Assembly: GCA_003220495.1 (NCBI GenBank)
Contig: QHSP01000054.1
Location: forward strand, 1-49,405
Length of the DNA: 49,405 bases
Direction of reading: 5' to 3'
Origin: Candidatus Rokuibacteriota bacterium
GTDB lineage: Bacteria > Methylomirabilota > Methylomirabilia > Rokubacteriales > CSP1-6
In this document: positions 28,640 to 33,200 of the stretch, piece by piece
How positions within the stretch are numbered: the stretch's first letter is position 1
Layout of the letters: every line of letters begins with the position of its first letter
Translations under genes and position numbers: made by a program
The notes under the pieces: model-generated
What the model was told of the DNA's origin: nothing
Database searches by the model: none
Seen by the model: only the letters and a program-made list of their open reading frames with translations

Positions 28640-28785
28640 ATGGAAACGCGGCTGGGGCGCGCGGTCGTGATCGCGGTGGTCGGCGTCGTGTTCGGGCTCG
28701 GCGGAGTCGCCGGCGAGTCGGTCGCCCAGACACGAAGGACGATAAGATGATGCCGGGCGAAAAGACGATGGAGAAGAAGCAATAG
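28640..28785 (+). pseudogene. Frameshifted Met/Lys/Asp-rich exported small protein (MXKDX/MrpX-like)
   Basis: From ATG 28640, behind GGGGAGGG, the frame gives a signal peptide (AVVIAVVGVVFGLGGVAGESVAQ) and stops at 28748-28750. In the next frame 28735-28785 reads KDDKMMPGEKTMEKKQ and stops. One inserted base near 28730 would join the two into a 49-residue exported protein with a Met/Lys/Asp-rich mature part, like MXKDX-repeat proteins. The join could be a true mutation, programmed shifting or a sequencing/assembly error. Its second stop is two bases from the start of the selenoprotein gene. Confidence 0.6.
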
Positions 28786-28787
28786 CC

Positions 28788-29312
28788 GTGGCGTGGCGCG
28801 CGTCGCTCGTCGTGGCGGCCCTGGCGGTGTCGTGGGTCGCGGTCGGCTCGGCCGCCGGCCAGGCCTCGCGTCTCGGTGCGCCGGCGCCGGAGGTGGCGGG
28901 AGCGCGCTGGATCAACAGCGAGCCCTTGACCACCCCGGGCTTGCGCGGCCGGGTCGTGCTGGTCGAGTTCTGGACCTTCGGCTGAATCAACTGCAAGAAC
29001 GTGATCCCGCAGTTGCGGGGCTGGTACGAGCGGTACGAGCAGGACGGGTTCACGATCGTCGGAGTGCACAGCCCGGAGTTCTTCTGGGAGAAGCCGTACG
29101 GGAGCGTGGTGGACGCGACGAAGAAGCTCGGGGTCCGGTACCCGGTCGTGCAGGACAACGACCTCACGATCTGGAAGCGCTGGGGTGTCTGGGCCTGGCC
29201 GACGACGATCCTGATGGACCGCAAGGGGGTCGTCCGCTACCGGCACATCGGCGAAGGGGACTACGCCGAGACCGAGGCGATGATCCGACGCCTCCTGGCG
29301 GAGCGGGAGTAG
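28788..29312 (+). CDS. Putative selenocysteine thioredoxin-like protein (UxxC), exported
   Basis: A 174-residue TlpA/AhpC-like protein if the in-frame TGA at 28983-28985 is read as selenocysteine (residue 66). Before the TGA: a signal peptide (SLVVAALAVSWVAVGSAAG), then GAPAPEV and VVLVEFWTFG. After it, in the same frame: INCKNVIPQLRGWYERY, GFTIVGVHSPEF, YPVVQDNDLTIWKRWGVWAWPTTILMDRKG and IGEGDYAETE. The TGA replaces the first Cys of the CxxC redox motif (relatives read FWTFGCINC-like), giving UxxC with Cys69. A perfect inverted repeat lies two bases downstream. The cis-Pro region WAWPTT is intact. Gene callers will split it. Selenocysteine use is inferred; SelB, SelA and tRNA-Sec are outside the window. 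Confidence 0.8.
28988..29015 (+). promoter_or_regulatory. Candidate bacterial SECIS hairpin
   Basis: CAACTGC (28988-28994) and GCAGTTG (29009-29015) form a perfect 7-bp stem starting two bases after the TGA. Inside, GA (28997-28998) can pair with TC (29005-29006), leaving a six-base apical loop ACGTGA. Position directly behind the UGA and a G-containing apical loop are as expected for bacterial SECIS elements. Confidence 0.55.
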
Positions 29313-29320
29313 CCGCCCGG

Positions 29321-30835
29321 GTGCTGTCGCCCTCCGCGAGATTCTCGGCGCTCGCGCTCCTGGCGATCGTGGCGCCCGCCGCCATCGTCGCGGTCCTCGG
29401 GTACGTCTCGATCCGCCAGTGGGAAGCCTCGTCCGAGCTCCTGTATCGAGAGCAGGCGCGCGACATGGCTACGATGGCCGCCGAGAAGGTCGAGATGACT
29501 TTGCGTCGCGCCGAGGACGCGTTTCTCGACCGCCTCCAGGTCGCCCTGCGGTCCGGAACGCCGTCGGAGCGCGCGGTCGACGCGCTGATCGCCGACTCGC
29601 CGTTGATCCGCAGGCTCTATCTCGTCAACCCGCGCGGCGAGCTGCTCTATCCGCGCGCCTGGCGGGAGGGCGACCTGGCCGTCTTCGGGCCGTTGGTGTC
29701 GGGAGCCGCCCTGCGCCGCCTCGAGCGAGACGGTAAGCGCGGGGTGATCTCGAACAATCTGGTGTGCCTGGCGCTCCTCACGCAGCGCGGCGGCCAGCCG
29801 GTGGTGGCGGCTTACCTGCGCGACCCCGACACCATGCGGCGCGAGATCCTCGAGACGACGCTCGGGACGCTCGAATCGTCGACCAATATCGCCGTGCTCG
29901 ACCACGAGGGGCGCACGGTCTACTCCCGCGCACCGATCGGGGACGCCCGGCGCGTGCTCTCTGTCGGATTTCGCGAGGCGCTTCCCGACTGGCGGCTCGC
30001 TGTCTACCAGACCTCCGGCGCGTCGCCGCGCCAGGCGGTCCGTCGGCAGGTCATGTTCTTCACCGGCGCCCTCGGGGTGCTCGTGGCCGTCATCGTGGCC
30101 GGTATCGTCATGACGTGGCGGCTGATGCGACGGGAGACCGAGATGGCCCGGCTCAAATCGGATTTCGTCGCCAACGTGTCTCACGATCTGAAGACTCCCC
30201 TCTCCGTGATCCGCATGTTCGGGGAGACGCTCGAGATGGGCCGTGTGGCCGACGAAGGCCGGCGCCAGGAATACTACCGGGTCATCACCCGCGAGGGCGA
30301 GCGACTCTCACGGCTGATCGACAACGTGCTGGACTTCTCGCGGATCGAGGGCGGCCGCCAGACCTATGACATGACGCCGACGGCCGTCGAGCCGCTCATC
30401 CGTGCGACGCTCGAGGCATTCGGATACCCGCTGGCTCAGCAGGGTTTCAAGGTCGAGGTGAGCGTGGCGGCGGATCTCCCCGAGGTGACGATGGACGCCG
30501 ACGCCGTCGGCCAGGCGCTCGCGAACCTGATCGACAACGCCATCAAGTACTCGGGCGACGATCGGGCATTGACGATCGACGCGCGGATCGCGGAGGGACG
30601 GCTCGTCATCGCGGTCAGCGACCGCGGCCTCGGGATCGCGCCCGAGGAGCAGGCGAAGATCTTCGAGAAGTTCTATCGCGTGGGGCGGAGCGACACGCAA
30701 GGACGCCGGGGCAGCGGGGTCGGGCTGGCGCTGGTGCGCCACATCGTCGAGGCGCATGGCGGCACGATCGCGGTCGAGAGCGCGCCGGGTGATGGGAGCC
30801 GCTTCTCGCTGCGCCTGCCGCTCGGCGGGACGTGA
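29321..30835 (+). CDS. Membrane sensor histidine kinase
   Basis: A 504-residue kinase. A first membrane helix (about 9-27) and a second (about 245-265, FFTGALGVLVAVIVAGIVMTW) enclose a periplasmic sensing region of about 215 residues. The H-box has His288 (FVANVSHDLKTPLSVIRMFG), and the ATPase domain has NLIDNAIKYS, DRGLGI and GSGVGLALVRHIV. There is no clear HAMP domain. GTG 29321 was chosen because the hydrophobic start follows at once; the longer frame upstream lies inside the thioredoxin gene. It is followed at once by its regulator and lies between a periplasmic redox protein and msrPQ, so it probably senses envelope oxidative stress. Confidence 0.88.
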   Translation: MLSPSARFSALALLAIVAPAAIVAVLGYVSIRQWEASSELLYREQARDMATMAAEKVEMTLRRAEDAFLDRLQVALRSGTPSERAVDALIADSPLIRRLYLVNPRGELLYPRAWREGDLAVFGPLVSGAALRRLERDGKRGVISNNLVCLALLTQRGGQPVVAAYLRDPDTMRREILETTLGTLESSTNIAVLDHEGRTVYSRAPIGDARRVLSVGFREALPDWRLAVYQTSGASPRQAVRRQVMFFTGALGVLVAVIVAGIVMTWRLMRRETEMARLKSDFVANVSHDLKTPLSVIRMFGETLEMGRVADEGRRQEYYRVITREGERLSRLIDNVLDFSRIEGGRQTYDMTPTAVEPLIRATLEAFGYPLAQQGFKVEVSVAADLPEVTMDADAVGQALANLIDNAIKYSGDDRALTIDARIAEGRLVIAVSDRGLGIAPEEQAKIFEKFYRVGRSDTQGRRGSGVGLALVRHIVEAHGGTIAVESAPGDGSRFSLRLPLGGT

Positions 30836-31515
30836 TGGCCAAGATCTTGATCGTGGACGACGAGCCCGAGATCGTGCGCGGCCTGGAGGACAATCTCCGC
30901 TTCGAAGGCTATCAGACGGCGTCGGCCGCCAACGGCGAGGAGGCGCTCGCGCTCGCGCTGAGCGGCGCGCCCGATCTCATCCTGCTCGACGTCATGATGC
31001 CGCGAATGAGCGGGTGGGATGTGTGTCGCGCGCTGCGCGAGAAGGGTATCGAGGTGCCCGTCATCATGCTCACCGCGCGGGGTGAGGAAGGCGACCGCGT
31101 CCGCGGCCTCGAGCTCGGAGCCGACGACTACGTGACGAAGCCCTTCTCGCTGCGCGAGCTCCTCGCCCGGGTGCGGGCGGTGCTGCGTCGGCCGGGCCCG
31201 CGCGAGCGATTCGAGGAGTTCGTCTTCGGCGATGTCCGGGTCCGCCCGCGCACCCGGCAGGCGTTCAAGGCCGGCCAGGAGGTCCGCCTCACGCGCAAGG
31301 AGTTCGACCTGCTGGTGTTCTTGATCGCGCATCGCGGCGAAGTGATCACGCGCGAGCGGCTGCTCGACGAGGTGTGGGGCTACGAGCGGTTCCCCACGAC
31401 GCGGACCGTCGACACGCACGTGCTCCGGCTGCGGCGAAAATTCGAGGCGGACGCCGATCGTCCGGTCTGGATCCTGACCCTCCACGGTCACGGTTACAAG
31501 TTCGCGGCCGTGTGA
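30835..31515 (+). CDS. OmpR/PhoB-family response regulator
   Basis: About 226 residues. The receiver domain has D8/D9, Asp52 in LILLDVMMPRMSG, Thr in MLTARGE and Lys in VTKPFSLREL. A winged-helix DNA-binding domain follows (VRLTRKEFDLLVFLIAHRGEV, VWGYERFPTTRTVDTHVLRLRRK). The ATG overlaps the kinase stop (TGATG); a GTG three bases earlier is also possible. It probably controls the msr genes 48 bases downstream and its own operon, as HprR does for msrPQ in E. coli; this is analogy. Confidence 0.9.
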   Translation: MAKILIVDDEPEIVRGLEDNLRFEGYQTASAANGEEALALALSGAPDLILLDVMMPRMSGWDVCRALREKGIEVPVIMLTARGEEGDRVRGLELGADDYVTKPFSLRELLARVRAVLRRPGPRERFEEFVFGDVRVRPRTRQAFKAGQEVRLTRKEFDLLVFLIAHRGEVITRERLLDEVWGYERFPTTRTVDTHVLRLRRKFEADADRPVWILTLHGHGYKFAAV

Positions 31516-31562: not shown

Positions 31563-32525
31563 ATGCTGATTCGACGCGCACCGCGGTTCACCGCGAGCGA
31601 GATCACCGATCCCACGCTCTACCTGAGCCGGCGCGAGCTGATCTCCGGCGCCGCCGCCGCTCTCGTGCTCGCGCCGGGCCTTGGCGAGGCCGCGACGCCC
31701 GCTCCCCCGGCGCTGCAGGCTCTGTCCGCGACCCGCCACGCGGCCTTCAGCCTGACCGAGCCGCTGACGAAGGTCGAGGCGGCGACGACCTACAACAACT
31801 TCTACGAGTTCGGTGTGAACAAGGACGATCCGTCCCGCCTTGGCCACACATTGAAGCCGCGCCCGTGGACGGTTCACGTCGACGGGTTCGTGAGCAAGCC
31901 GAAGACGTTCGACGTCGACGAGCTGATGCGGCTGTTTCCGCTCGAGGAGCGCGTCTATTCGCTTCGCTGTGTGGAAGCCTGGTCGATGGTGATCCCGTGG
32001 ATCGGCTTCCCGCTCGCCCCGCTGCTCAAGCGCGTCGAGCCGACCGGGCAGGCGAAGTACGTCGAGTTCACCACCTTGCTCGACCCCAATCAGTTCCCGG
32101 CCCAGAAGCCGGGATTCTTCGGCTTCTCGTCGCTCGACTGGCCTTACGTCGAAGGGCTCCGCCTGGACGAGGCGATGCACCCGCTCACGCTCCTGACGGT
32201 CGGCATGTACGGCAAGGTGCTGCCCAATCAGAACGGCGCGCCGGTGCGCGTCGTGATTCCGTGGAAGTACGGGTTCAAGAGCGCCAAGTCGATCGTCCGG
32301 ATCCGTCTGGTGAGCGAGCAGCCCAAGACCGCCTGGGAGAAGGCCGCGCCCCAGGAGTACGGCTTCTACTCCAACGTCAATCCCGCCGTCAGCCATCCGC
32401 GCTGGAGCCAGGCCGACGAGCGCCGTATCGGGGAATTCCGCCGGCGGCCGACGCTTCCGTTCAACGGCTACGCCGACCAGGTCGCGGCGCTCTACACCGG
32501 GATGGACCTGAAGAAGAACTACTAG
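31563..32525 (+). CDS. msrP: Periplasmic methionine sulfoxide reductase, molybdopterin subunit
   Basis: A 320-residue precursor with a twin-arginine signal ([18 protein letters not shown]), expected to be exported by Tat. The sulfite-oxidase-fold molybdenum domain has the ligand Cys136 in [15 protein letters not shown], then [35 protein letters not shown] and [12 protein letters not shown]. MsrP reduces methionine sulfoxide in periplasmic proteins using electrons from MsrQ. GAGGAG lies just before the ATG. msrQ follows after 12 bases. Confidence 0.93.
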
Positions 32526-32537
32526 TCTGAGCCCGCC

Positions 32538-33200
32538 GTGACGCGTCCGGCGCGTATCGCGCTCAAGGTCGTGGTGTGGTCCATCTGTCTCGCGCCGCTG
32601 GCGCGCCTGGCCTATCGGGCGTGGACCGACGATCTCGGCGCCAACCCGATCAGCTTCATCACCAACACCCTCGGCGACTGGACCCTCCGGATCCTGCTCG
32701 CGTCCCTCGCGATGACACCGCTCCGCATCGCATTCGGTCTCTCGTGGCCGATCACGGTGCGGCGGCTTCTCGGACTCTTCGCGTTCGCCTACGTGTGCTT
32801 GCATTTCTCGGTGTGGATCGTCCTCGACTTCTTCTTCGACTGGCCACGGATGTGGGCCGACATCGTCAAGCGTCCGTACATCACGATGGGCATGCTCGCG
32901 TTGCTCTCGCTGATCCCGCTCGCCGCCACCTCGACGACCAGCATGATCCGGCGCCTCGGCGCGCGCAACTGGACGCGCCTGCACCGTCTCGCCTACGTCG
33001 CCGCCGTGTGCGCGGTCGTGCACTATCTGTGGCTCGCGAAGGTCGGCGTGAAGGACCCTTACTGGTACGCGGCCGCGCTCGTGGTCCTGCTCGGCGTCCG
33101 CGGATGGGAGTGGGCTCGACGGGTGATCCGTCGACGCCGCGACCGGGCCCAAGCGGCGCCCCCGCGCGTGCGCTCCCAGGCCGAAAACCCGCTTTCATGA
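32538..33200 (+). CDS. msrQ: Haem membrane subunit for MsrP
   Basis: A 220-residue inner-membrane protein of the ferric-reductase-like family with about six helices. Haem-ligand histidines are likely in VCLHFSVWIV, WTRLHRLAY and VCAVVHYLWL; the loop NFITNTLG-like stretch NPISFITNTLGDWTLR is typical of MsrQ. It passes electrons from quinones or flavin to MsrP. The start is GTG 32538. The C-terminus is a basic tail. Confidence 0.92.
   Translation: MTRPARIALKVVVWSICLAPLARLAYRAWTDDLGANPISFITNTLGDWTLRILLASLAMTPLRIAFGLSWPITVRRLLGLFAFAYVCLHFSVWIVLDFFFDWPRMWADIVKRPYITMGMLALLSLIPLAATSTTSMIRRLGARNWTRLHRLAYVAAVCAVVHYLWLAKVGVKDPYWYAAALVVLLGVRGWEWARRVIRRRRDRAQAAPPRVRSQAENPLS

Follow-up and report, generated by a model that had tools for sequence, protein, structure and literature searches.

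The window, i.e. the whole analysed stretch of 49,405 nucleotides from a Candidatus Rokuibacteriota contig, harbors a gene for a thioredoxin-like protein with an in-frame TGA, which is preceded by the remnant of a small methionine-rich open reading frame (ORF) and followed on the same strand by genes for a two-component pair and for MsrP and MsrQ (Table 1). If the TGA is counted as selenocysteine (Sec), the frame comprises 174 residues, and thioredoxin-fold sequence is indeed found on both sides of the codon (EFWTFG-U-INCKNVIPQ), as a preliminary description of this DNA had stated. With the standard code, the same GTG start yields an ORF of only 65 residues.

The predicted Sec-thioredoxin matches the AhpC-TSA/Redoxin/Thioredoxin_8 group of Pfam, with hits to both PF00578 and PF08534, and its best match among solved structures is the thioredoxin domain of Mycobacterium tuberculosis DipZ (E 6e-38), besides matches to SOQ1 and NHLRC2. 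The match to the thioredoxin fold (DipZ-like, TlpA/ResA superfamily) includes the active-site motif and a WP segment, which we take to be the cis-Pro segment. DipZ consists of a thioredoxin domain fused to a CcdA-type membrane domain; the protein described here is a stand-alone ORF, in which this fusion, the true DipZ architecture, is absent. Its N-terminus resembles an export signal, as judged by reading the sequence. The scores against the Sec-related NCBIfam families NF041054 and NF040769 were far below their cut-offs, no Rfam match was obtained across the window, and an AlphaFold model of the single sequence without alignment was too poor to be used (mean pLDDT 42.9) and was discarded. We consider it very probable that the Sec protein is a periplasmic reductase of the DipZ type.

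Table 1 Features of the locus in the window. Coordinates are positions of the window; all features lie on the strand indicated.
Feature	Position	Strand	Remarks
Remnant of a small exported Met/Lys/Asp-rich (MXKDX-type) ORF	28640..28785	+	Shortened, frame-shifted; intact in close relatives
Predicted Sec-containing DipZ-like thioredoxin	28788..29312	+	GTG start, N-terminal hydrophobic leader, UxxC, TAG stop
UGA predicted to be read as selenocysteine, first active-site Cys position of the thioredoxin fold	28983..28985	+	Homologue alignment
7-bp inverted repeat of the preliminary description	28988..29015	+	CAACTGC 28988-28994, GCAGTTG 29009-29015; overlaps the SECIS hairpin
Bacterial SECIS hairpin UCCCGC-AGUU-GCGGGG	29005..29020	+	Loop begins 25 nt 3' of the UGA
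Sensor histidine kinase	29321..30835	+	HisKA, HATPase_c
OmpR/PhoB-type response regulator	30832..31515	+	
MsrP, molybdopterin protein-methionine-sulfoxide reductase	31563..32525	+	NF003767, 473.6 bits vs cut-off 207
MsrQ, haem membrane subunit	32538..33200	+	NF003831, 176.4 bits vs cut-off 130

Conservation of the UGA and the Sec machinery

A protein search in 95 genomes of the phylum resulted in a match at E ≤ 1e-40 in 56 of them, including the genome of the window itself. The set of 56 loci used in the following comprises the window, 54 of the 55 other matches (a fragment in genome G091 was left out) and a weaker match in genome G014 (locus L125, contig C109). The latter shows two in-frame gaps, one of which deletes the UxxC stretch, with the remainder of the gene and the hairpin intact, which is either a real loss or an assembly error; as the segment at the UGA is missing, this locus was excluded from all counts at the site, which consequently refer to 55 loci. 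Among these homologous loci, which span the site and originate from many assemblies, 53 have a TGA and two have a Cys codon. The alignment also bears out that the TGA stands for the first redox cysteine, since the column is occupied by Cys in DipZ and in the two close relatives.

If the gene were a pseudogene, or the TGA a sequencing error, only the 65-residue fragment obtained with the standard code would be made. This is extremely improbable in view of the recurrence of the TGA across loci and assemblies and of the low dN/dS ratios 3' of the TGA, which range from 0.12 to 0.27 in six comparisons with congeners. Likewise, we regard a decoding of the UGA as a residue other than Sec, either by a code that assigns it to Trp or by programmed read-through, as practically negligible: such a decoding would agree with the open frame and with nothing further, and it is opposed by the Cys residues at this column in DipZ and in one genus (g5), by the use of TGA as the stop codon in 32 of the 53 TGA loci, from which it follows that UGA is still a stop in those genomes, and by the presence of a SECIS element and of a complete Sec machinery.

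With respect to this machinery, the genome of the window, a metagenome-assembled genome that is 98% complete, encodes tRNA-Sec (C152:34565-34658), selA and selB in its vicinity, and a selD that contains a TGA of its own, i.e. all four components whose search had been proposed; tRNA-Sec was found in 79 of the 95 genomes of the phylum. The initial reading as a putative selenoprotein is thus supported, and neither a lack of the machinery nor a stop or unrelated sequence at the site in relatives was found. From the sequences we infer that the UGA is almost certainly decoded as Sec.

The resolving Cys is missing in two of the 55 loci, L117 (G050) and L123 (G049), in which UINS replaces UINC, so that Sec is kept and the resolving Cys is Ser; this suggests a one-selenol mechanism in these two proteins.

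Further TGA-containing genes were observed in these genomes. A second TGA family (L128 to L132 in G031, G022, G050, G032 and G046) combines a thioredoxin domain with NHL repeats (NHLRC2/SOQ1-like) and shows FCUINC or YCUINC in 5/5 loci; in L128, L129 and L131 the hairpin sequence CCGCAGTTGCGG is located 3' of the UGA, and the compared locus L133 has no TGA. In the genome of the window, an in-frame TGA takes the place of the first active-site Cys codon in two further TlpA-like genes, namely L024 (C76:112376-112699, minus strand; FFWATWUSTC) and L025 (C89:77927-78370, plus strand; YFWESTUPYC).

The SECIS hairpin and the Cys forms

For the expected SECIS element behind the TGA, we searched the 53 TGA loci for hairpins according to the rules of a bacterial SECIS model, as described in the available text of PMC13188914. 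In the window, a hairpin obeying this model is present (Table 1), with a stem of 6 bp, the loop AGUU, a spacing of 25 and a minimum free energy of −16.5 for the 51-nt stretch; an equal or better rule-abiding hairpin was obtained in 0.8% of 500 synonymous recodings. A rule-abiding hairpin of some kind was found in 52 of the 53 loci, L114 being the only one without it, and the spacing is 24 to 26 in 47/53. The level of 0.05 against synonymous recoding was reached by 38 loci and missed by 15. Hairpins are weak in family f8, which has an imperfect stem at the orthologous place, and in family f5 (0.12 to 0.17 against recoding), in whose three loci this position is occupied by an entirely different stem, TGCCTTG-GGT-CAAGGCA. 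Folding energy alone is not decisive, with values ≤ 0.05 against synonymous recodings in 4/32 rows, one of which is a Cys form, and the test based on the loop rules is sharper.

The codons shortly behind the TGA are almost invariant at their synonymous sites. In a set of 44 loci (the family of the window without G014, including the two Cys forms, plus L105), synonymous diversity at codons +8 to +11 amounts to 0.00 to 0.15 of the expectation, and the same synonyms are kept for Pro (CCG, 43/44), Gln (CAG, 42/43), Leu (TTG, 40/41) and Arg (CGG, 43/43). If all TGA loci are considered, Leu at +10 is encoded by the rare codon TTG in 47/47 cases, compared with 85/1162 for the other Leu codons in these genes, and in the six TGA loci with Val at +10 the loop still shows G followed by G or U. 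In addition, alignment pair 27-34 of the SECIS stem is changed on both sides in 8/53 rows, from G-C to C-G in five and to T-A in three.

The perfect 7-bp inverted repeat two bases behind the TGA, which the preliminary description had put forward as the hairpin, is real; as a SECIS element, however, it was misidentified, for a better hairpin overlaps with it. Because its 3' arm also serves, and competes with, this hairpin, the repeat is probably not the functional element, and it is highly unlikely to represent the SECIS, even as another conformation of that element. Over the 53 loci, 346 of 371 cells of the repeat pair, which is a larger share than for the SECIS stem in fixed register (281/318), and folding of the whole stretch favours the 7-bp stem in a single relative (L072; 0.90). 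However, it shows zero two-sided pair changes, its 5' arm falls in the conserved Asn-Cys codons, and the mean pair probability over 41 loci of the family is 0.03 for the 7-bp stem versus 0.85 for the SECIS hairpin. Moreover, a stem that starts so close to the UGA would begin inside the ribosome when the UGA occupies the A site. When the first 14 bases were removed, mimicking the cover by the ribosome, the pair probability of the SECIS hairpin was 0.98.

The two Cys forms, in G012 and G033, belong to one genus (g5), and tRNA-Sec is still encoded in both genomes. The hairpin rule is broken in both: in G033 the stem is lost, and in G012 the stem is retained with a loop that now reads AATT, i.e. 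the loop G is lost. In a FastTree phylogeny the two are sisters (support 1.0) and nested inside the TGA forms, with supports of 0.41 and 0.25 nearby and of 0.85, 0.96 and 0.89 at deeper nodes. Given this placement, Sec appears to have changed to Cys, and one such change is the simplest history. According to the available text of PMC13188914, Sec-to-Cys changes are rare, and most of the documented cases concern FdhA and SelD. The genus thus offers a natural experiment on the reversion of a bacterial Sec site.

Linkage to msrPQ and the proposed role

For the analysis of the gene neighbourhood, the loci were divided into the family of the window (44 loci, counting the window and G014) and other families (12 loci). 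In the former, msrP is linked to the Sec gene in 35/44 loci, always on the same strand and within about 6 kb, and msrQ in 34/44. Kinase, regulator, msrP and msrQ are all present in 21 of these 44 loci; in 13, msrP directly follows the Sec gene, without a kinase pair, and in four it is located upstream of the Sec gene. As regards the nine unlinked loci, one (G032) is ended by a contig edge, in six msrP is encoded on a contig other than that of the Sec gene (G019, G026, G079, G010, G080, G077), and in two genomes (G020, G085) no msrP match was found anywhere. None of the 12 loci of other families has msrP near the Sec gene. The earlier remark that the protein stands in front of an Msr locus is therefore right, and the conservation of the linkage even allows a stronger statement.

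A Met/Lys/Asp-rich ORF upstream of the Sec gene passes the filter in 12 of the 56 loci, in one of them at a distance of more than 1 kb. The ORF is intact in L071 to L073, and its shortened form in the window is possibly due to a repeat collapse in the assembly. In L082, L085, L101 and L107, the upstream Met-rich ORF is lipoprotein-like, with a GGC or AGC box followed by DAMMEKKG or MMKKDD repeats. In family f8, ccdA is located directly upstream of the Sec gene in all three loci with more than 3 kb of upstream sequence, an arrangement that recalls a DipZ split in two. A ccdA gene adjoining the Sec gene was not found in the family of the window; the window's own genome encodes two CcdA/DsbD-type proteins elsewhere.

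On this basis, we propose that SelB, tRNA-Sec and the SECIS hairpin would enable the ribosome to insert Sec at the UGA, giving rise to an exported, stand-alone thioredoxin of the DipZ type with Sec as the nucleophilic residue (UxxC). In the periplasm, the protein would probably receive electrons from a CcdA/DsbD-type membrane protein, a route we infer from the ccdA neighbours in f8 and from DipZ, and it could reduce oxidised thiols (disulfides, sulfenic acids) or the oxidants themselves. In Escherichia coli, the electrons for MsrPQ come from quinones, as described in the available text of PMC8315932, so that MsrPQ needs no thioredoxin; the two systems therefore probably work in parallel, on thiols and on methionines. 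MsrPQ would accordingly repair methionine sulfoxide alongside the Sec-thioredoxin, a sacrificial Met-rich peptide may join them in some relatives, and the two-component system may control the set.

Alternatively, the Sec-thioredoxin could be a general periplasmic reductase similar to ResA, DsbE or DipZ, which functions in cytochrome c maturation or disulfide repair, so that its adjacency to msrPQ would be incidental. This is consistent with the other families, which have no msrP nearby, with the ccdA neighbour in f8, and with genomes of the family that keep msrP without the Sec gene. We nevertheless consider it unlikely, as the same-strand linkage to msrP recurs in three arrangements, i.e. with msrP as the next gene, with msrP after the two-component pair, and with msrPQ upstream. 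Overall, the best reading of the locus is that a periplasmic, CcdA-fed selenothioredoxin is part of an envelope locus for oxidant repair, which we regard as likely. A partnership of the Sec-thioredoxin with MsrPQ, to which the gene linkage points, seems to us somewhat less assured, though still rather probable.

With slightly greater reserve, we lean towards the broader picture of a Rokubacteria envelope module that counters reactive chlorine or oxygen species: a CcdA-fed selenothioredoxin would deal with oxidised thiols or the oxidant, and MsrPQ together with a Met-rich bait with methionine. This would be the first selenoprotein tied to MsrPQ, as far as our searches reached, with one genus having changed from Sec to Cys and exhibiting the SECIS at two stages of decay. 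The conserved location near msrPQ leads to a testable hypothesis, namely that a periplasmic selenoprotein takes part in repairing oxidised proteins. Since gene callers using the standard code truncate the protein at the UGA, annotations of Rokubacteria genomes will probably overlook it or show it as fragments.

Comparison with known systems

The relatives within Candidatus Rokuibacteriota presumably belong to the phylum that is named Methylomirabilota in PMC13188914. A metagenome-assembled genome of Methylomirabilota with 63 predicted selenoproteins is reported in the available text of that source (PMC13188914). The same text lists UxxC thiol:disulfide oxidoreductase selenoproteins (rows PF00578, PF08534 and cd02966), in which Sec is likewise the first residue of UxxC, a likeness of description and not of compared sequences; its main text makes no mention of DipZ, CcdA, MsrP or the periplasm. 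Among open-licence papers, searches for DipZ selenoproteins, for selenoproteins of Rokubacteria or Methylomirabilota and for selenoproteins tied to MsrP yielded nothing on this protein, nor any account of a selenoprotein connected with MsrPQ. Thioredoxin-like UxxC selenoproteins are already known, and the proposed partnership with MsrPQ is the new part.

The C-terminal thioredoxin domain of M. tuberculosis DipZ (PDB 2hyx, 5cyy) is similar over the whole domain, and its CINC motif has Cys at the column of the UGA; in contrast to DipZ, the Rokubacterial protein stands alone, is predicted to be exported and has Sec in place of this Cys. In the MsrAB proteins 2fy6, 2h30 and 2jzr, which are presumably of the Neisseria type, an N-terminal TlpA-like domain, a weak sequence match, provides a thioredoxin-like domain for methionine repair in the envelope. 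There, the domain is fused to the thiol-based MsrA/B, whereas the Rokubacterial gene lies near that of the molybdenum enzyme MsrP. The hypochlorite-resistance loci mrpX-yedYZ and bcrXQP, as far as described in the available text of PMC8315932, have MsrP and MsrQ in common with the locus presented here, and their MXKDX peptides, described for Azospira and Brucella as sacrificial scavengers of HOCl that are encoded next to msrQP, correspond to the MXKDX-type ORF of some relatives. Compared with these loci, the Rokubacterial one adds the Sec-thioredoxin and a histidine kinase/response regulator pair, in place of which the Brucella bcrXQP-type locus has an ECF sigma/anti-sigma pair (PMC8315932).
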